The translations under genes and the position numbers were made by a program. From the NCBI GenBank assembly GCA_024692715.1, contig JAILMH010000045.1, forward strand, positions 1-49,702: 49,702 bases of DNA. Direction: 5' to 3'. Under the pieces are notes generated by a model. The model was given only the letters and a program-made list of their open reading frames with translations. It was not told the origin of the DNA and searched no databases. Origin of the DNA: Lachnospiraceae bacterium (GTDB taxonomy: Bacteria; Bacillota; Clostridia; Lachnospirales; Lachnospiraceae). How positions within the stretch are numbered: the stretch's first letter is position 1; each line of letters opens with the position of its first letter. Shown one piece after another: positions 8,744-18,194 of this stretch.

Positions 8744-10378
8744 TCAATTCTCCAATATCAAGTCAATTACTCTCTGCTGTCCCTTTGCAAGACTGTGCTT
8801 AAGCTCAGCCGCCCTCATCTCACGACGAACATTAGGCGTTTCGGCCAGCCATTTCATAGTCTTTCCGATCGATTCTTCATCGATATTCTCGCCAAGTCCC
8901 AGATTTATAAATCCATTATGGATACCTGCAAATACATGCTCTGTCTCTCTCTCGTTCTGTGCGAGTACGACCGCCGGAACTCCCATACTTGCGAGCTCGT
9001 AAATAGTACGTCCCTGAGATGTCACAGCGAGATCAGCCTTTTTCATAAAGGTTGAAACCCTCTTAACATCATTATGTATAAAGATATTTTTTTCAGGAAT
9101 ATCGTGCAGATCATCCTTCTTCAGATATCCAAAACCTGTTATGAAATGGAACTCACACTCAGGCATGGCTCCGTGAAGCTCTGAGCATACTCTTACAAGC
9201 TTTCCTGTAAGATCAACCGGATCAGAACCGCCAAACATGATCACTACATTTCTGCACTCCTCGCTGAATTCCTTAGGCTTCTGCTCCAGAAATTCATCGC
9301 GGATAAAGTAGTAATCAGAACCCTCTCTGACGTTTCCTGTCTTACCCGGATGATTCTCATAAAGTGCATTGATGACCACATCTGCAAGGGCTGCACCCTT
9401 CCCGATATCTTCAAAATTAACTATGCGCTTAGTGTACTTTCTCTCCAGAGAAATAAATTCCTCTGTCGTATTGAGCACATCATTTACAATGATATCCGGG
9501 CAGTACTCCCTCAAGACCTCTTCGTACTCCGCATCATCAGAGACCACCTTCATTGGGAAAAATGACTCTCTGAGGCGCTCAATTCCCATCTCGCTCTTAG
9601 TATCTGTGACAAAAAGAAGTTCGTGTCCGACAAGCTTATATGCTATAGAAAGGCATCTGTAAATATGCCCCATTCCGAGCTTTCTCTCACCTACACATCT
9701 GAAAAGGATCTTCTTTCTTCCAAGGATCGCCTCTGCATTGATCCAGTCCTCGTCAGTATCGATATCCACTGCCTCCTGTGGTGATGTCTCAAACACAGAA
9801 ACGTTTTCTCCGATACGTGTATCCTTTGTAACAACACTTCTCTTCGCTATCACAAAACCGCCAGTCTCAAGGTAGTTGGCCGGAAGTTCCTGGGAATTAA
9901 GTCTCTTTTCGTAGTTTTTAACTATCTTTCCGTCCTTTTTTGTCCATGAAAGATGAGGCTTATTAACAACACTTATAACTGTATCATAGCCGCCATCCAC
10001 AAAATATTTTATGGCATTTTTAAGGGTTTCCGGCTTAAGCGTAGGTGATGTGGCCTGCATCGTGATAACAACGTCATAAGTTTTATCCTTACGCTTTTCC
10101 ATCTTGCATAAAGCATCATAAATAACCGGATCGAGCGTTATATTGTCTGCCGAAAGCTCTTCTCCGCGCTCAACGATATCCACACCGCGGTCTCCTGCAA
10201 TGAGCGCAAGCTCTTCATCATCTGTCGAAACTGCGATATCAACATCATAGTCTGATTTAAGCTCAGCCGCATTCTCTATGGAGTAGAGTATCAAAGGCTT
10301 TCCGCACATGATACGCACATTTTTCCTGGGGATTCTCTTTGAACCGCCCCGGGCCGGTATAACAGCCAGAATATTCAT
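8744..10378 (-). CDS. Fused CMP-nonulosonate cytidylyltransferase and PseG-like UDP-sugar hydrolase
   Basis: Two enzymes are joined in 544 residues. Residues 1-220 match NeuA/PseF/LegF cytidylyltransferases, with the nucleotide loop ARGGSKRIPRKN at 9-20 and the metal-site element DIDTDEDW near 206-212. Residues 224-544 match PseG/FlmD-type hydrolases of the GT-B (MurG-like) fold: GMGHIYR at 235-241 with His238 in the place of the family's catalytic base, and a C-terminal SQGRTIYELASMGVP donor-site element. PseG releases UDP from a 2,4-diacetamido sugar before NeuB-type condensation, and PseF activates the product with CTP, so one polypeptide covers steps either side of the NeuB at 11819-12889. 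The earlier pathway enzymes are not in this window. Confidence 0.9.
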   Translation of the reverse strand: MNILAVIPARGGSKRIPRKNVRIMCGKPLILYSIENAAELKSDYDVDIAVSTDDEELALIAGDRGVDIVERGEELSADNITLDPVIYDALCKMEKRKDKTYDVVITMQATSPTLKPETLKNAIKYFVDGGYDTVISVVNKPHLSWTKKDGKIVKNYEKRLNSQELPANYLETGGFVIAKRSVVTKDTRIGENVSVFETSPQEAVDIDTDEDWINAEAILGRKKILFRCVGERKLGMGHIYRCLSIAYKLVGHELLFVTDTKSEMGIERLRESFFPMKVVSDDAEYEEVLREYCPDIIVNDVLNTTEEFISLERKYTKRIVNFEDIGKGAALADVVINALYENHPGKTGNVREGSDYYFIRDEFLEQKPKEFSEECRNVVIMFGGSDPVDLTGKLVRVCSELHGAMPECEFHFITGFGYLKKDDLHDIPEKNIFIHNDVKRVSTFMKKADLAVTSQGRTIYELASMGVPAVVLAQNERETEHVFAGIHNGFINLGLGENIDEESIGKTMKWLAETPNVRREMRAAELKHSLAKGQQRVIDLILEN

Positions 10379-10388
10379 TTTATTTATA

Positions 10389-11819
10389 TCAACCTCGTCT
10401 ATTTTTCAGCATTTTGACTGCATTGATTATATCACGCTTTCTGGCATATGCCAAAGCGCCAAACCACAGTATCGAAATGCAGTATCTGATGATCCATTTT
10501 TCATAGACCATGATATACGCAATACCTATCACACAGGTGATCGCCAGCATTACAAAATAAAGTGCATCGTCATAGATCGCATGCTTAAGTATAAAGCGTG
10601 TACATATAAAGTGCAGTACCATAAGGATAAAATAGCCTGCAAGGGTTGTATATGCAGCTGCGATGAATCCGTACTTTGGGATAAAGTATGCATTCAGCCC
10701 AAAATTTATAACAGCGGCTATCACTGAGTTAACAGCGATCAGCGATGTCTTTTTGTAAAAGAGCTCGACATTTACATAGTTAGTGTAAAAATACTGGCAA
10801 AGTGTTCCAAGTGCCACCGGAGGAACAACGTACATAGAAGTCCAGTATCCAGGCGCATAGAGGATCTTTACCGCTTCCGGTGCGCAGGCGATGAACCCAA
10901 GCGTAACTACACACCCAAGAAGCATCATAAGTCGGTTCTTTTCCCTTACAGCCTTATAATCCTTTGTGTAGAGTCTTTCATTAAACCACGGAAGCCATGC
11001 CTGACCTATCGCATTTGTCAAAAACATCAAGAGCGAACCTATAGTATAACCTGATGTGTAAAGTCCTACATCCGAGTAATCGCATATCTCAGCGATCATC
11101 GTTGTATCGATACGGGCCAAAAGCAGCATGGCAAGGCCGTGCGGTATCATCGGAAGCCCGATCCTCAACGCATAAGACCAGTATTTTTTATTGATAAAGG
11201 TCTTTCCCTTACGCAAAAGATTAATGTAGCACCAAAGTGCAACCGCTGCGCTTGGAATAACAGTTCCGAGGATCTTAGCAAAGCCTCTCTCTGCCGGCAT
11301 GGCAAGCATTAAGGCTATTGAAAGCACCACAGTAGCTACTGTTATGATCACAGATATCGCAATATTTTCACGATATTTATACTCAAATCTGTATTTATAC
11401 TGCATGTAATCTATCGAAGGATATAGCGCGAGATACGCAAAAAGTATCAGCACTACTCGCCTCTCAAACTGCAGCATCCCGCTCTCCGGGCACACAAAAA
11501 ACATCACCGCCATAACGATGATGCCAAAAAGACTCGAAAGAGTCTGGATCGATGACATGAATTCATCAAATTCATCGGCAAAGTCAAGCTTTGCCCGGCC
11601 TACAGAGTATATAAGACACAGTCCCATGACTGCGCTCAGAATACTTACATAGTTATTGAAATTGTTTGCATAACCCGTCTCAGCAGTTGTAAGAAGACGG
11701 GTATATATAGGAGCTGTAATAATTCCGACCGCTCTTATTAGTACATTTGATATAACATACCAGAAGCCGGACTTTACAGCCTTTTTCCCATTATTATCCT
11801 TTACGTTTTCAGCGCCCAT
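10389..11819 (-). CDS. Wzx-type oligosaccharide flippase
   Basis: The 476-residue protein has about 14 membrane helices. Its N-terminus has the family pattern: a Gly-Phe-Trp-Tyr stretch, then a Thr-Ala-Pro-Ile-Tyr-Thr-Arg loop. This is the MATE/PST oligosaccharide flippase type. It is placed between the nonulosonate synthase and the CMP-nonulosonate synthetase, so it may translocate the unit that carries that sugar. The start ATG shares one base with the stop of the upstream gene (TAATG). Two flippases in one operon is unusual for a single repeat unit. Confidence 0.9.
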   Translation of the reverse strand: MGAENVKDNNGKKAVKSGFWYVISNVLIRAVGIITAPIYTRLLTTAETGYANNFNNYVSILSAVMGLCLIYSVGRAKLDFADEFDEFMSSIQTLSSLFGIIVMAVMFFVCPESGMLQFERRVVLILFAYLALYPSIDYMQYKYRFEYKYRENIAISVIITVATVVLSIALMLAMPAERGFAKILGTVIPSAAVALWCYINLLRKGKTFINKKYWSYALRIGLPMIPHGLAMLLLARIDTTMIAEICDYSDVGLYTSGYTIGSLLMFLTNAIGQAWLPWFNERLYTKDYKAVREKNRLMMLLGCVVTLGFIACAPEAVKILYAPGYWTSMYVVPPVALGTLCQYFYTNYVNVELFYKKTSLIAVNSVIAAVINFGLNAYFIPKYGFIAAAYTTLAGYFILMVLHFICTRFILKHAIYDDALYFVMLAITCVIGIAYIMVYEKWIIRYCISILWFGALAYARKRDIINAVKMLKNRRG

Positions 11820-12889
11820 TACTTAAGCATATCCTGTGTAAGAATTGTATCATCGGCAATATCTACTGCTGCTGTCTTGCCGATGACCGTGTCGATCTTT
11901 GAAGGTGATATACCTGTTCCCGGTCTCTTGTAGGTAAGCATGCTCTTTTCAATGACAGTACCGGCCTTGATATCGCCCAGTGAAACTATTGAACGTCTCG
12001 CATTGCTCCTTGCCTTACCTTCTGTATCAAGGCAGACAAGATCACCCTTTCCGCGAAGCATATCCATTCTCTTGATTCCTGCAAGGATATCTCTCGCATC
12101 GGCAGGGTCCATTGCATGATAATGGTCATTTCCCTTTAAGGTCTTATTGAGCGTGAAGTGCTTCTCAACAAGCTGTGCACCAAGATTATACGCTGTCTTG
12201 ATAACATCACACTCCGGTGTAGGCTTAGTATGATCAGAATATCCTATATAAACATCCGGAAATTCTTTTTTCAGCGATGCGATCTTTAAGAGGTTGGCAT
12301 CCTCAAGCGGTGTCGGATACTCAAGCACACAGTGAAGAAGTGTGATCTTCTTATCATTCACCTTACGTATCGTCTCCACTGCAGCTCTTATCTCATCTGC
12401 GTTAGAAGCGCCTACAGAAAGAAGTATAGGCTTATTTTTCTTTGCCTGATATTCAATGAATGGAAGATTAGAAAGATCTGATGAAGAGATCTTATACACA
12501 TTCATCATAGGATCAAGATAATCTGCTGATTCAAAGTCAAAGGCTGTTGAAAGGAATTCGATTCCGAGAGTCTCTGAATACTCTGCAAGTTCTTTATATT
12601 CCTTTTCACCAAAGGCATCGAATTTCTGGAAAAGCTCATACTGAGAGCGTGTCGGTTCCTCAGTTATATCCCAGTAATACGGCGATGCCTTAGCTGCAAG
12701 AGTTCCTGCCTTATAGGTCTGGAACTTTGCCGCATGGATTCCTGCTTCAGCAGCTTCTTTGACCATGAGCTTTGCCGCATCCATATTTGAAATTCCACGC
12801 TCTGCCGCAATGTCATAGTAGTTTACACCGATCTCTGCGATCAGTACGAATTTACCCTCTGCAAGTCTTTTTTCTATTACATTTATCAT
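11819..12889 (-). CDS. neuB: NeuB-family nonulosonate (sialic-acid-like) synthase
   Basis: The 356-residue protein has the NeuB TIM barrel: AEIGVNY near the N-terminus, KFQTYKA, GYSDHT and EKHFTLNK with a following Asp-His-Tyr-His. A C-terminal SAF (antifreeze-like) domain, ARRSIVSLGDIKAGTVI onward, follows. The family condenses phosphoenolpyruvate with a hexosamine derivative to make N-acetylneuraminic, legionaminic or pseudaminic acid. I cannot assign one, but the PseG-like domain encoded two genes downstream argues for a 2,4-diacetamido precursor. ATG at 12889 overlaps the upstream stop as ATGA; an earlier in-frame start at 12910 lies inside the neighbouring gene and is less likely. Confidence 0.92.
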   Translation of the reverse strand: MINVIEKRLAEGKFVLIAEIGVNYYDIAAERGISNMDAAKLMVKEAAEAGIHAAKFQTYKAGTLAAKASPYYWDITEEPTRSQYELFQKFDAFGEKEYKELAEYSETLGIEFLSTAFDFESADYLDPMMNVYKISSSDLSNLPFIEYQAKKNKPILLSVGASNADEIRAAVETIRKVNDKKITLLHCVLEYPTPLEDANLLKIASLKKEFPDVYIGYSDHTKPTPECDVIKTAYNLGAQLVEKHFTLNKTLKGNDHYHAMDPADARDILAGIKRMDMLRGKGDLVCLDTEGKARSNARRSIVSLGDIKAGTVIEKSMLTYKRPGTGISPSKIDTVIGKTAAVDIADDTILTQDMLK

Positions 12890-14493
12890 CTTACGCCACC
12901 ATCCAGCCAACGCTGGTAGCCTTTCTCATAAAATTTAAGAAGCTCTTCAAGCATTCCATCAAACTCAGCATCTTCCTTGGCCCGCCCTGCAAATATCTCT
13001 TCCGCGCCATTCATAAGCTCATTTATCTTGACCTCAGAGCCCGCTTCTTTAACAGCTTCAAGATAGGCTGCACATGAATGAGTATTTTCAATAGGCTTTC
13101 CAAACTCTCTTATGACCTCCGGAAGATCTTCATAAGAGCGTATCCTTGTTACTCCATCCATAAGAGAAAATGGAACATCTCCAAATACTATTGAACGTTT
13201 TCCTAAAAGTGCTGCTTCATACGCACCTGTTCCTGTGATAGTCGCAACACCTTTACAATTAGTGATCCAAGGCTTCGGATCTTTATAATAATTCACCTGA
13301 ACAACACGCACATTTGCGATCTCTGCGGCTTTTTTATAAAACTCAGGGTCACGTTCTCCAAGCATCGACTGATGCTCTTTCACATAGAGTTTCCAGCCGA
13401 CAGGAAGTGCCTTTGACACCTGCTCTATGAGATTAAGCTCATCCACATAGAAAGGTCCCTTTACGAAAACAGTTGACTCCGGTATCAGATGAAGCGGCAT
13501 ATAAACATAGTCTTCACCCTCTACAGGCGGCTCAAATACATTATTCGGCACAAGGAATTTACGCTTACGCATGTAAACATTCCAGTAATACTTAAGATAT
13601 GGCCATGTCTTTGCATAGAGCATATGGCTCTTCTTTTTAAGCTTAAGATTACCCGCTGTAAAATCCTGATTCCAGAAATAGTTCCACTTGCCATGCATAA
13701 GCCTAAAGATCCAGCTCCATGAATCTCTTTCATACTGCAGAGTCGCCGTACCCTTATACATAGGATTCATGATGCTTGATTTCTCTCTGAAGTCCTTAAT
13801 ATAGTCGATCGAAGCCTGCATAGACTCATCGCTCTCATTAAGCTTTTCTTCGTATATTTTCTTAAAATATGGATCGATACCATATGCATTCTGAAAACTT
13901 GGAAACTTATAATATCCGAATTTTCCATACTCAACCGTGATATAAGGAATATTTCTCTTATAAGCCACTTCTACGAGGATAGTTCTCTGAAGCTCAGCAT
14001 TATCAAGATCAAGGATCACATCCGGCTTAAAATCATCTAAGATATGGAAGATATTTTTATAATTAAGCTCAAGCCAGTACTGATTCTCCTCATCACTTGT
14101 AACTGACCAGTACTCACGATAATGATAATGCTTTGTATTTTCCTGAGAGCTCATGAGCTGAAGCCCAAGAGTCTTGTAATGACTGTAATCTCTCTCTATT
14201 TCTTTAAGAAATTCTATATCAGCCGGTGCCTTGGAACGCTTGAAGCCTTCCACGAATTCGTCGCAGATATCACCGACATCATAGAGCTTCACATCAGGAA
14301 GCTTCTCTCTGAATTCATAGATAGTATGCTCATTGTAATAGCATTTTTTGAACTTACTCTCTGAAGACATGATAAAAAAGGCTGCGACTTCATTATCTTT
14401 TTTAAGTTCTCTCGCAAGGAACCATAATGGTTTGGAATATGTCTCACGACACACAAACAATATTTTCTTATTCTTAAAAAGTTCTGATCTCAT
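12886..14493 (-). CDS. Capsule-synthesis protein resembling KpsC/KpsS-type transferases
   Basis: This 535-residue soluble protein resembles the capsule_synth family that includes the KpsC/KpsS beta-Kdo transferases. The C-terminal GT-B-like half has VKEHQ at 371-375, in the place of the family's Lys-Pro-His-Pro, and TGTGAYEAALLGK at 420-432, in the place of the Ser-x-x-Gly-x-Glu-Ala-x-x-x-Gly-Lys donor loop. The N-terminal half looks Rossmann-like. Kdo is a ulosonic acid, and this gene overlaps neuB by four bases, so a role as a nonulosonic acid transferase is an attractive inference. The family match is from motifs only and the overall similarity is modest. Confidence 0.62.
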   Translation of the reverse strand: MRSELFKNKKILFVCRETYSKPLWFLARELKKDNEVAAFFIMSSESKFKKCYYNEHTIYEFREKLPDVKLYDVGDICDEFVEGFKRSKAPADIEFLKEIERDYSHYKTLGLQLMSSQENTKHYHYREYWSVTSDEENQYWLELNYKNIFHILDDFKPDVILDLDNAELQRTILVEVAYKRNIPYITVEYGKFGYYKFPSFQNAYGIDPYFKKIYEEKLNESDESMQASIDYIKDFREKSSIMNPMYKGTATLQYERDSWSWIFRLMHGKWNYFWNQDFTAGNLKLKKKSHMLYAKTWPYLKYYWNVYMRKRKFLVPNNVFEPPVEGEDYVYMPLHLIPESTVFVKGPFYVDELNLIEQVSKALPVGWKLYVKEHQSMLGERDPEFYKKAAEIANVRVVQVNYYKDPKPWITNCKGVATITGTGAYEAALLGKRSIVFGDVPFSLMDGVTRIRSYEDLPEVIREFGKPIENTHSCAAYLEAVKEAGSEVKINELMNGAEEIFAGRAKEDAEFDGMLEELLKFYEKGYQRWLDGGVR

Positions 14494-14498
14494 CTCAA

Positions 14499-15458
14499 TT
14501 ACTGCTTTCTCGTAATCAATTTAAGTGCAGCAGGATATGCCTGCACGATTCGTATTTTAATCTTTGTATTGCGATTTGCAATATCCCCTTCAAGGACACT
14601 TCTCGCATGCTTTCTTACATATTTAATATGTTTCTCAGCATTCTTTTTACTGTAAGTATCATTCAAAAGCTGTACCTGAATACAGGTTATATGATCATAT
14701 GTAAGAAATACTTCACAGTAAGGCTTCAGCTCCGGATAACGTTCTGAAACTATCTCACAAAATGCTTCATCCGCTTTGGTATTCTCCTCCGCACTTACTG
14801 CTGTATGGGAAATACTGTCATTTCTTCTTCTGAAATGATACAGAGGAGTAGTCGTATAGACAACACTGTCCACATTTGTAAGGATCCTGCCTATCACATA
14901 GCGGTCCTCAAGCTGTCCCTTTGTCGGAAAAGGATTTCCTTCAAAAAGAGAAGCCTTAAAAAGCTTATCCCAACAATGGAAGAAAAAGCCCGAGCCATCA
15001 AGGATCATTTTACAGGCATCACGGCCTGTGAGATTTCTCATTGAACGCTGCTCATCCGGAACGCTTCTGTCCGGATATTCCGCAATCTTTCCACAGACTG
15101 CGATATCTGCTCCGCTGTAATTTATAGCATCATAGAGCTTCTCAAACATATCCGGCTCCGCCCAGTCATCACCGTCTACCCAGCCGATATATTCTCCTTC
15201 AGCCGCTGCAAGTCCAAGGTTTCTCGCATCTCCTGTGCCCGCTGCCAGAATCTGCACGACCTTTATCCTCTCGTCATTTTCAGCATATCGCTCTGCTATT
15301 GCAAGGCATCCGTCATCCTTTCCGTCTGCGTCTGTCCCTACTACGAGAACTATCTCAAGATTCTCATAAGTCTGTGCACAAAGGCTCTGAATGCATTTCT
15401 CCACATAAGGAGCTACCTGATATATGATTGAAATCACCGAAATTTTAGGCAAACTCAT
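14499..15458 (-). CDS. GT2 family glycosyltransferase, first gene of the polysaccharide operon
   Basis: The 319-residue protein starts with the GT2 strand ISVISIIYQVAPYVEKCI and has the metal/nucleotide site WVDGDDW near residue 95, with an ARNLGLAAAEGEYIGW acceptor-side element just before it. This subtype (EpsJ/CpsI-like) has a C-terminal helical tail with a YHFRRR patch near residue 205. ATG at 15458 is preceded by a GGAGAGG ribosome binding site. It is the first gene after the promoter at 15494-15522, and the next gene starts five bases after its stop. Confidence 0.88.
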   Translation of the reverse strand: MSLPKISVISIIYQVAPYVEKCIQSLCAQTYENLEIVLVVGTDADGKDDGCLAIAERYAENDERIKVVQILAAGTGDARNLGLAAAEGEYIGWVDGDDWAEPDMFEKLYDAINYSGADIAVCGKIAEYPDRSVPDEQRSMRNLTGRDACKMILDGSGFFFHCWDKLFKASLFEGNPFPTKGQLEDRYVIGRILTNVDSVVYTTTPLYHFRRRNDSISHTAVSAEENTKADEAFCEIVSERYPELKPYCEVFLTYDHITCIQVQLLNDTYSKKNAEKHIKYVRKHARSVLEGDIANRNTKIKIRIVQAYPAALKLITRKQ

Positions 15459-15683: not shown

Positions 15684-16667
15684 ATGTCTAAATACTCTAT
15701 AGTAGCTTCAAATGCCAGAATGTCAGCTCTTACAGAAAACAATTTAGGTAAAGAGCTTTTACAGATTTCCGGCACCATAAACACTATAAGCAAAGCGCTC
15801 GCCATACATGACTGCTCGCAAGCTATGCTTCAGGCAGCTTTATCAGGCGTTATAAAAGAACTCGAAAGCAACAGTGACACCATGAAACAGCTTGGCAAAG
15901 CTCTTACTGATATTGCAAATATCTACGAACGTACCGACAAACATATCAGTAATTCTATGACAACTGCTAACAGCGGTGGTATACTTGACTGGTTGAGTAA
16001 AAGCCACAAATCTGAATATACAAAATATTCAGGCTCTTTCCTTGGTGGATTTGGCGGATACGATCTCCTTGGATATAGCGCAGAATTCAAGCCTTGGTCA
16101 AAAGCTTCATTCGATGGTTATCTTGCAAAAGCTTCTCTAGGACGCGAAGGCAAGTACGCAGGAGGAAATTTGGAAGCAACTCTTGGTAAAGTTTCTGCAA
16201 GCGGAGAACTCAACGCTTCAATATTTGAAGACGGAAAATTACGTCCGGGTCTTCTTGCCGAAGCAAAAGTTGGCGGAAGTGTCCTGAGCGGAGAAGCAAG
16301 TGGACGTCTTGGTACCGAAGAATACAATGCACATGCTAAAGCTGACGGAGATCTACTCACCGCAGAAGCATCTGTATCAGCCGGTGCAGGTGTTATCGAG
16401 AAAGAAAAGGACGGAAAGAAAACCACCGAAATAGGTGTAAAGGCTGAAGCAGGTGCAGAAGCTTATGTTGCTAAAGGTGAGGTTTCCGGTGGATTTACCA
16501 TTGGCGGACTCAAAATTGATGCCACAGTCGAAGGCGATGCATTCGGTGCCGGCGCAAAAGCAGGCGGTTCTGTTACAACCGACGGTCTTAATCTTGACTT
16601 AGGTCTCGGTCTTGTAGTCGGTGGCGAAGTCGATATTTCCGTTGACTGGTCTGATCTTTTTGATTAA
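15684..16667 (+). CDS. Predicted type VII secretion substrate with WXG-like N-terminus and Gly/Ala-rich repeat region
   Basis: In this 327-residue protein, residues 1-90 form two predicted amphipathic helices like a WXG100/LXG hairpin. No W-x-G is present, but Tyr81-x-x-x-Asp85 stands at the end of the second helix, where type VII substrates carry YxxxD/E. From about 115 to the end it is built of Gly, Ala, Glu, Ser and Val alternation (for example SASGELNASIFEDGK and GEASGRLG). That region is like the beta-rich linker seen in many Firmicutes polymorphic toxins. Here it ends with VDISVDWSDLFD and no toxin domain follows. A GGACGGAGGATAA ribosome binding site precedes the ATG. The DUF4176 gene 24 bases downstream supports the type VII reading. 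The function is unknown: effector, carrier or pore-like protein. Confidence 0.72.
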   Translation: MSKYSIVASNARMSALTENNLGKELLQISGTINTISKALAIHDCSQAMLQAALSGVIKELESNSDTMKQLGKALTDIANIYERTDKHISNSMTTANSGGILDWLSKSHKSEYTKYSGSFLGGFGGYDLLGYSAEFKPWSKASFDGYLAKASLGREGKYAGGNLEATLGKVSASGELNASIFEDGKLRPGLLAEAKVGGSVLSGEASGRLGTEEYNAHAKADGDLLTAEASVSAGAGVIEKEKDGKKTTEIGVKAEAGAEAYVAKGEVSGGFTIGGLKIDATVEGDAFGAGAKAGGSVTTDGLNLDLGLGLVVGGEVDISVDWSDLFD

Positions 16668-16691
16668 TAATTTATTGTAAAGGAGTTTTAT

Positions 16692-16997
16692 ATGTATAAG
16701 GATTTATTACCAATCGGTTCAATAGTTAGATTAAAAGAAGGCACAAAGAAACTCATGATCACAGGACGCATCATTTGCAGAGCCGGCTCTGACGAAATCT
16801 TTGACTATGTAGGATGTACATACCCTGAGGGCTTGACTGATGCCAAAAACATGCTTTTCTTTAATAGAGATGCTATCGAGGAAAAGTTCTTCATCGGTTT
16901 TCAGGACAAGGAAGAGATTGATTTCAGAGAACAGATTCTCGCTAACTTAGGTGAGCTTGAAGTTGTAGACGGTAAAATAGTTCAGAAGGAAAATTAA
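16692..16997 (+). CDS. DUF4176 protein, type VII secretion accessory
   Basis: This is a 101-residue acidic cytosolic protein. The stretch LPIGSIVRLKEGTKKLMITG, then a DYVGCTYPEG element, LFFNRDAIEE and FIGFQDKEE match the DUF4176 family, found in Firmicutes type VII secretion and LXG-toxin loci. A targeting or chaperone-like role has been suggested from such neighbourhoods. The ribosome binding site is AAAGGAG seven bases or so upstream of the ATG. It lies between the putative substrate gene and the DUF3592-like gene (two-base gap), so the three are probably one operon. Confidence 0.85.
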   Translation: MYKDLLPIGSIVRLKEGTKKLMITGRIICRAGSDEIFDYVGCTYPEGLTDAKNMLFFNRDAIEEKFFIGFQDKEEIDFREQILANLGELEVVDGKIVQKEN

Positions 16998-16999
16998 TT

Positions 17000-17440
17000 A
17001 TGTACTCAGATTCACCAGAATTTATATTGATATTCATGCCACTCATATATCTGCTGCTCGGGATAATTCTTACAATAGTCTCCAATGTTTCCAAAAATAA
17101 TATTTTGAAAAAAATGGAGATATATACATCTACCACCAACGGAACTCTGACCAAGTGGAATCATCATGTTTCCACCCACAGTTCCGGTGCCACAGGCTGG
17201 TATCCTGTTTTTGAATATGACGTAAACGGTCAGCACTATGTGCGAGAAGAAAATATCAGCCGCACCAAACGCGGAGAGTCTCCGGTTGCTGTGGTAATAC
17301 ACTACAATCCTTCTAAGCCGCATGAATTCTATTCAAATTCTGAATTATACTTCAAGCGCTCAAAGATATTCATGATCGCAGGTATAGGTTTCATAGCATT
17401 TTCTATTTTGACTTTTGTTATAATAGCAAAGTTCATATAA
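17000..17440 (+). CDS. DUF3592-like membrane protein
   Basis: The 146-residue protein has a membrane helix at each end (about 7-28 and 120-143). The middle region reads GWYPVFEYDVNGQHYVREE, and then a VIHYNPSKPHEFY element. This is the DUF3592 pattern: a small two-helix protein with a beta-rich loop between, usually predicted to lie outside the membrane. It follows the DUF4176 gene with a two-base gap and ends just before a strong terminator, so it closes the three-gene operon. In this setting it could be an immunity or membrane adaptor protein; that is inference. Confidence 0.75.
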   Translation: MYSDSPEFILIFMPLIYLLLGIILTIVSNVSKNNILKKMEIYTSTTNGTLTKWNHHVSTHSSGATGWYPVFEYDVNGQHYVREENISRTKRGESPVAVVIHYNPSKPHEFYSNSELYFKRSKIFMIAGIGFIAFSILTFVIIAKFI

Positions 17441-17445
17441 TTTAA

Positions 17446-17474
17446 AAGAGGCTGCCAATATAACGCAGCCTCTT
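17446..17474. terminator. Bidirectional hairpin terminator
   Basis: AAGAGGCTGC (17446-17455) pairs perfectly with GCAGCCTCTT (17465-17474) around a nine-base loop. It is followed rightward by a T-rich run, and leftward the A-run before the stem also gives some U. It sits between two converging genes, the DUF3592-like gene and the lipoprotein gene, so it probably serves both. Confidence 0.88.
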
Positions 17475-17479
17475 CTGTT

Positions 17480-18022
17480 TTATTTATTCAAATTTTCCAA
17501 AATTTCCAATCCTCTATCATATACATCCTCAAGCTCATCACCTGAAATATAGTATTTCGTAAGTATATAATATTCTCTCTCAAAATCTGCAACAGCTGTA
17601 GTCTGCAGATCATCCTCACCGAAGCCACCTTTTAGTGGAATATGATATTCATTTTCTTCATAATCATCATCCTTACCGCCGAAATATTCATTAAAAGTCA
17701 GATAAATGTCTACGGAACCATCTCCATCATTACACATGATGAATTTTGCAGGCTTATTATCAGTATCTTCCCTTACAGACTTCTCTTCTATTTCACCTTC
17801 CACATGATCAAATATATAGCCTTTATTTATAAAAAGGAACTTCTTTTTCTCATAGTAGTAAGAATATGTCCCATCACTGGCTCTTATATCCCCATCTTTA
17901 TAAACTGTTGCATCATATCCCTTATCTTTTATTTTCTTTTCCACGTTACTTTCATTTGTTCCACATGCTGTCAATAACACACAGATCATTGCTCCACTTA
18001 ATACTGTTATTAATTTTCCCAT
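17480..18022 (-). CDS. Small lipoprotein of unknown function
   Basis: ATG at 18022 gives a 180-residue protein with a clear lipoprotein signal: basic start, hydrophobic core and lipobox LTAC with Cys20. An in-frame start further upstream (18085) would add 21 residues before the signal and is unlikely. The mature part is acidic, rich in Asp, Glu, Lys and Tyr, with no motif I know; it includes a run of aspartates near the middle. It should be tethered to the outer face of the membrane. It converges on the type VII-like operon across a shared terminator, with no sign of a functional link. Confidence 0.75.
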   Translation of the reverse strand: MGKLITVLSGAMICVLLTACGTNESNVEKKIKDKGYDATVYKDGDIRASDGTYSYYYEKKKFLFINKGYIFDHVEGEIEEKSVREDTDNKPAKFIMCNDGDGSVDIYLTFNEYFGGKDDDYEENEYHIPLKGGFGEDDLQTTAVADFEREYYILTKYYISGDELEDVYDRGLEILENLNK

Positions 18023-18194
18023 ATCATCACTTTCTCTATCAATTCCTATACAAACTGCCAATTCTCTCGGAATAAAATAACACATTTAAGACTTTTAATG
18101 TGCAGTTCCTGACGAACTGTAGTTTCAAATAGTACGAAATGCATTTTTCACATATAAGTTCTCGGCATATATATTTTTTCTTTTAAGATGCAAT

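Follow-up and report, generated by a model that had tools for sequence, protein, structure and literature searches.

A compact three-gene operon in a Lachnospiraceae genome encodes what we predict to be an effector module of a type VII secretion system (T7SS), comprising an effector with a WXG100-like helical hairpin (P1), a chaperone (P2) and a membrane partner (P3), a reading to which we assign a probability of roughly 0.7. The window analyzed is a stretch of 49,702 nt, the entire contig C5 of a 2.09 Mb genome in 79 contigs (90% complete). The novelty lies in the C-terminal domain of P1, for which the searched libraries contain no family, and in the make-up of the module, not in a new principle of secretion. 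The features of the locus are as follows.

15684..16667, + strand: P1, candidate T7SS-exported protein, 327 aa, ATG start (open reading frame; homologues in the same trio)
15684..15968, + strand: WXG100-like helical hairpin, predicted, P1 residues 1-95, lacking WxG (hhalign, periodicity, AlphaFold2)
15924..15938, + strand: Y-x3-D motif YERTD, Tyr81-Asp85, candidate export motif (Y-x3-[D/E] in 18 of 19 hairpin-class proteins)
16101..16664, + strand: Gly/Ala-rich C-terminal beta domain, P1 residues 140-327 (beta periodicity, 23-domain alignment)
16692..16997, + strand: P2, DUF4176, 101 aa, predicted Ltc-type T7SS chaperone (PF13780, 9DCS)
17000..17440, + strand: P3, DUF3592 membrane protein, 146 aa, two helices by eye (PF12158)
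17446..17474, + strand: intrinsic terminator stem (10-bp stem, T-rich tail)
17480..18085, - strand: lipoprotein-like gene (by eye), convergent, of doubtful membership in the module (identity and dS profile)

The P1, DUF4176 and DUF3592 genes form one tight plus-strand operon with a terminator at its end and minus-strand neighbors on both sides; by eye, the minus-strand genes at 8744-15458 resemble those for a sugar-acid synthase, a cytidylyltransferase, a flippase and a glycosyltransferase. The spacing of 24 bases between P1 (ending at 16667) and P2 (16692-16997) is as the first-pass annotation had given it, and P2 and P3 are 2 bases apart. That annotation had also ended the operon with a membrane protein at a strong terminator, in agreement with the match of P3 to DUF3592 (Pfam PF12158, E 1.9e-6, 28.9 bits, cut-off 25.3) and with a 10-bp stem of -16.7 kcal/mol (z -5.5), whose loop of 9 exceeds the limit of 8 in the consensus terminator scan that missed it. 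P2 is a member of DUF4176 (Pfam PF13780, E 1.6e-28, 99 bits, cut-off 25) and matches the solved relative 9DCS at E 2.1e-9. It also matches phrog_14657, whose function is not annotated, at E 6.6e-22, so that relatives of DUF4176 occur in phage-assigned sequences.

In P1 residues 1-95 the helical periodicity exceeds that of shuffled sequences (z 3.7), and a low-confidence AlphaFold model of the protein places helices at residues 3-38 and 44-94 (block pLDDT 46-73). Alignment of 17 hairpins with 16 WXG100-type proteins in hhalign gave a probability of 96 and E 4.8e-9 over 91 columns, against a probability of 28 and E 6e-4 for the reversed control. Profile comparison, periodicity and the low-confidence model together weakly back a helical hairpin. 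Up to E 1 in Pfam, neither WXG100 nor LXG (PF04740) was listed for P1, the single family listed being eukaryotic and below its cut-off, and WxG is found within the first 70 residues in 0 of the 19 hairpin proteins described below. Y-x3-[D/E] at the end of helix 2, in contrast, is present in 18 of these 19, including P1 (YERTD), the exception being L127. The first-pass description of a hairpin carrying Tyr81-Asp85 and lacking both WXG and an LXG domain is upheld by these data. Judged from its sequence, P1 has the examined features of a WXG100-superfamily substrate except WxG, and its export is predicted; with a hairpin of only about 95 aa and no LXG domain listed, it is by the tests run not an LXG toxin.

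The genome encodes secretion machinery that such a substrate would use. The module had been called an orphan with no EssC or EsxA nearby, which is correct for the contig, where whole-genome searches found neither EssC over the cut-off nor WXG100, and incorrect for the genome, where both lie on other contigs. EssC (TIGR03928) exceeds its curated cut-off (1083.8 bits) on the 5.9-kb contig C76, which also carries a LytTR gene, and has an FHA-like N-terminus by eye; contig C53 carries YukD (E 9.3e-8) and four WXG100 matches over the cut-off, along with an S8 protease (subtilase), a VWA-FHA protein, a PP2C phosphatase and a protein kinase. Because EssC, LytTR, YukD and WXG100 genes lie together in Lachnospiraceae bacterium KH1T2 and likewise in a genome of another genus, G137 (LytTR and YukD there by eye), C76 and C53 are probably parts of one T7SS locus. 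No member of the EspC family (PF10824) was found in the genome, none of EssA, EssB and EsaA was noticed among the genes read by eye, and the system may fall among the published T7SSc-j subtypes. With EssC, YukD and WXG100s encoded in the same genome, the trio as an orphan remnant without machinery was rejected, and the search for EssC and YukD leaves the T7SS reading unrefuted.

Proteins with the same hairpin were collected across related genomes, many of them incomplete metagenome-assembled genomes, with hairpin and beta-domain profiles that were seeded with their own matches and iterated once; the iterated hairpin profile also captures WXG100 proteins. The loci read comprised 33 regions around DUF4176 matches, one place being taken twice, contig C53 and the loci of P1 matches, and together they take in 47 of 48 DUF4176 match rows (all but G056:C30). 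Overlapping genes caused the ORF caller to drop DUF4176 at L021, L087, L091, L096, L099 and L107, all six of which were recovered by a six-frame check; the same check found none at L018, L057 and L090. This yielded 19 hairpin-fused proteins in 14 genomes, of which 16 (324-467 aa, five of them profile seeds) came from loci of P1 or DUF4176 matches, one lies beside EssC in KH1T2 and two come from other families of the class. EssC is over the cut-off in 13 of the 14 genomes, and the remaining one (G006, 67% complete) has an EssC fragment of 276 bits at a contig end, so that T7SS machinery accompanies the hairpin in relatives as well. All hairpin proteins but one (18 of 19) have a DUF4176 gene at their locus, the exception being the one beside EssC in KH1T2; this link is partly by construction, since the hairpin search concentrated on loci with DUF4176. 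Seeding and locus sampling inflate both the EssC and the DUF4176 link of the hairpin; several of the 19 are near-copies, and relatives are not independent.

Behind this hairpin, the C-terminus varies: it is the beta domain in 11 of the 19 proteins, another kind of region in seven and a C39-like peptidase in one. The seven other regions have no beta-profile match at E < 1e-20, and several are Gly/Ala-rich and helix-like by eye, while the peptidase fusion (L057:12442-13482 in KH1T2, divergently oriented beside EssC) matches at E 2.2e-4 and 22.3 bits, just under the cut-off of 24. In P1 and its relatives, roughly 220-370 residues follow the hairpin, varying by domain type. The first-pass annotation had envisaged a class of substrates in which the repeat region itself is the active or structural part, and had suggested surveying neighborhoods for replacement of the last residues by toxin domains; other domains do occupy that place, and in this class the repeat region is not always the last part. 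From the varying C-terminus, the hairpin looks like a delivery module. The genome itself has a second trio on contig C19 (L015:8548-10579), in which the hairpin protein (383 aa) carries YQTTE and is accompanied by a DUF4176 protein (92.3 bits) and a membrane protein of 184 aa without a DUF3592 match. By eye, the C-terminus of this second hairpin protein is Gly/Ala-rich and helix-like.

Matches to P1 at E <= 1e-5 were found in seven of 150 Lachnospiraceae genomes, and of the six beyond its own, two reach the hairpin (G137, G029) and four span the C-terminal domain only (G101, G006, G002, G075), although in G006 a hairpin is nonetheless present on reading. The homologue in G137 sits in the same trio at a different genomic place and is 36% identical; DUF3592 is over the cut-off at the equivalent place in both G137 and KH1T2. 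Within the genus, P1 is matched at E <= 0.001 in 13 of 48 genomes, in full length only in its own and in G178, which is counted with KH1T2 (G150, L053) as one genome on account of an identical EssC place (C20:7775-11539, 1094 bits). A profile of the C-terminal domain has three matches at E <= 1e-8 in 341 genomes of the class, its own included. No relative was found on searching P1 against plasmids and phages or a pair alignment against viral contigs. A four-sequence alignment was too diverse for the contig scan.

Residues 140-321 of P1 show beta periodicity (z 6.0 against shuffles), as do all 23 aligned C-terminal domains, that of P1 included (z 3.0-7.8), and the alignment contains three invariant glycines. 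Gly makes up 19% and Ala 13% of residues 110-327, which contain no Cys and carry a net charge of -13. Of the earlier description of this part as a "repeat" beta-type region, the beta character is borne out and the repeat is not, the DNA tandem repeat amounting to one 32-base stretch and nothing beyond. Neither Pfam nor NCBIfam assigns this part of P1 to a family over the cut-off, PHROGs and PADLOC list none for it, and no toxin domain was recognized. AlphaFold gives two helices and a beta region for P1, with pLDDT 46 for the whole protein and 49 for the domain alone (three sequences each), values too low for naming a fold; Foldseek of the weak domain model against the PDB yielded nothing at E <= 0.001, the best hit standing at E 0.22, and the profile of the 23 domains against PDB sequences gave a best E of 0.13, which is chance level.

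Proteins of the DUF4176 family are now named Ltc chaperones and, in the accessible text of PMC13355648, are T7SS-linked, bind a disordered region in a subset of LXG toxins, stabilize them and remain cytoplasmic; in the portions seen of PMC10765036 and PMC11322744, secretion of TelA depends on a DUF4176 protein, and export of TelC (S. intermedius) is independent of the DUF4176 protein of the telA locus. Among the 150 Lachnospiraceae genomes, 36 have EssC over the cut-off, 28 have DUF4176 and 22 have both (Fisher p 5.5e-12), and four of the 28 (G036, G054, G069, G075) lack even an EssC fragment.

The beta domain is also paired with DUF4176 in genomes that show no T7SS. The hairpin is absent from 14 beta-domain proteins (521-1479 aa, from 12 genomes), 13 of which have an adjoining DUF4176 gene (the exception is L090). 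Of the 12 genomes, only G156 and G002 have EssC over the cut-off; among the remaining ten, the EssC model gives weaker matches in nine, as it does in most genomes, and none in G161. WXG100 exceeds its cut-off in the same two, G168 having been examined along with the 12. The contrast in EssC between hairpin-class and hairpin-less genomes has a Fisher p of 1.2e-5 (1.7e-4 without the G006 fragment), uncorrected for kinship, and with completeness of 65-95% in the ten genomes lacking EssC, incompleteness is unlikely to explain all ten. DUF4176 alone is therefore no proof of T7SS export, and the large proteins suggest another export route or a cell-surface system, mostly in genomes without EssC over the cut-off. 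Among these large proteins (L020, L021, L080-L090), several have basic tails and several an acetyltransferase-like neighbor, by eye. G101, which has EssC, encodes one more beta-domain protein; its LXG match is weak (E 0.013, below the cut-off), and the 18 kb around it contain no DUF4176.

These proteins lend some weight to an alternative in which beta domain and DUF4176 together make up the conserved unit, the former belonging to a structural protein that is secreted or sits on the cell surface and the latter helping it to fold; T7SS would then be one export route among others. The adjoining DUF4176 genes of the hairpin-less proteins, the ten genomes without EssC over the cut-off and the presence of DUF4176 in all seven family genomes with a P1 match are consistent with it; against it, DUF4176 also adjoins hairpin proteins without a beta-profile match (L015, L094, L097, L098, L099, L100), and the literature, in the accessible text, places DUF4176 beside LXG toxins. 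We regard this alternative as plausible, at about one chance in three in the balance of evidence. With similarly tentative standing, well short of even odds, we propose that the beta domain, as a new all-beta effector fold, and the DUF4176 chaperone form a portable unit that is served by T7SS through a hairpin or an LXG-like domain and by another route through a large N-terminus in genomes without EssC, its alleles being exchanged or diversified between flanks homogenized by recombination.

The allelic part of this proposal comes from comparison with KH1T2, in which the trio lies at the same place beside enolase and P1 is 76% identical. Synonymous divergence is low in P1 codons 1-105 (dS 0.078), DUF4176 (0.070) and DUF3592 (0.054), whereas codons 106-327 have a dS of 0.782 and a dN of 0.263, with breakpoints near positions 16000 and 16670. 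The C-terminal dS falls within the range of the neighboring genes, seven of which, the lipoprotein-like gene apart, span 0.33 (enolase) to 2.0. Selection alone as the source of the C-terminal divergence was rejected because, within one gene, synonymous divergence of this part exceeds that of the hairpin tenfold; this contrast points to histories of the two parts that differ by recombination, the likely cause of the mosaic. The C-terminal domain may have been swapped in, or it may be an old domain between recently homogenized flanks. Low divergence extends over about 15690 to 17700 and ends inside the lipoprotein-like gene, which has no Pfam family and whose dS of 0.52 overall is made up half and half, its DNA being 99% identical in the 3' part and about 68% in the 5' part; this split probably marks the edge of the recombination tract. 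As an immunity gene it was rejected, since in G137 it is not beside the module and its split divergence fits a tract edge.

The mosaic also bears on whether P1 is the degenerate form of a polymorphic toxin whose toxin domain was lost, with the beta domain as only a carrier, linker or extracellular scaffold. The first-pass annotation held that such regions usually precede toxins, a view of one kind with this explanation, and noted that here no toxin follows; indeed the P1 sequence ends at the beta domain, and no toxin family was found. In six of 24 beta-domain proteins, 80-808 residues do come after the domain (about 800 in L088, of 1479 aa), but at most 60 do so in the other 18, and at most 53 in all nine hairpin-bearing ones. 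Moreover, the toxin-less pair is kept across genera and in two other families, in each of which a profile confirmed it, and a dN of 0.26 well under the dS of 0.78 is not expected in a decaying gene. We consider this explanation less likely than not. Least probable by far is that P1 is a cytoplasmic, Lap-like targeting partner for another T7SS substrate and not itself cargo: Lap1 proteins are indeed WXG100-like hairpins with an F-x3-D motif (accessible text of PMC9600955), but Laps are small, unlike P1 and its relatives with their long, type-varying extensions, and no substrate gene was recognized on the contig (Pfam scan covering P1-P3 and the lipoprotein-like gene).

We return to the T7SS effector module. 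The hairpin of P1 would fold into a T7SS targeting domain, and Tyr81-x3-Asp85, perhaps with a WXG100 partner from the T7SS locus, would guide the protein to EssC encoded on the other contig. P2, as an Ltc-type protein, would keep P1 stable and export-competent in the cytoplasm without being exported itself. The exported cargo would be the C-terminal beta domain, all-beta, Gly/Ala-rich and acidic, which is the changing part and might act outside the cell or on the envelope of a neighbor. P3 would be the membrane-side partner of the producer, perhaps conferring immunity; its role as immunity protein or membrane partner is a guess. In the one pair of genomes compared, the window and KH1T2, P3 is 95% identical and the C-terminal domain 66%, with no co-variation between them; that DUF3592 did not follow the divergence of the domain speaks against an allele-specific immunity role of P3. 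No paper in the literature searched combined DUF3592 with "type VII secretion", or "type VIIb secretion" with Lachnospiraceae and substrate.

Our results point to a class of T7SS effectors that combine a short hairpin with a DUF4176 chaperone in Lachnospiraceae and related bacteria, outside the streptococcal and staphylococcal models of the literature seen, and offer a small system whose targeting domain, chaperone and cargo form distinct blocks. They also suggest that the partners of DUF4176 proteins include some outside T7SS; annotation of the family would then need a different reading.

The closest known systems are the LXG, Lap and Ltc systems of T7SSb, which, in the accessible text of PMC9600955, PMC13355648, PMC10765036 and PMC11217815, share with the module a WXG100-related helical N-terminus, a variable C-terminus, a DUF4176 gene in some effector clusters and a Y/F-x3-D/E motif. 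P1 differs in its hairpin of about 95 aa as against an LXG domain of ~190 aa, in carrying the motif within the effector and not in a Lap, the trio having no Lap gene, and in a C-terminal domain that belongs to no family of the searched libraries. WXG-fused polymorphic toxins have already been described in general terms, and those of Zhang et al. 2012 (PMC3482391) likewise join a WXG-type trafficking domain to a variable C-terminal domain; P1, unlike these, has no recognized toxin domain, and DUF4176 is not mentioned in the accessible text of that paper. The EssC, YukD, WXG100s, kinase, PP2C phosphatase and FHA protein of the genome resemble the T7SSc-T7SSj systems of PMC11217815, whose main text contains neither DUF4176 nor a word starting with Lachnospir. 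Finally, membrane-active LXG toxins share a membrane-protein gene in the effector cluster (TspA/TsaI; TelD with DUF443 genes), and TelE has a glycine-zipper C-terminus, according to the literature in the portions seen; by eye, the C19 trio looks closer to the TspA/TelE kind. The trio described here differs from TspA and TelE in that the C-terminal domain of P1 is beta-type by periodicity, not a glycine-zipper helix, and P3 is a DUF3592 protein, not a DUF443 protein.
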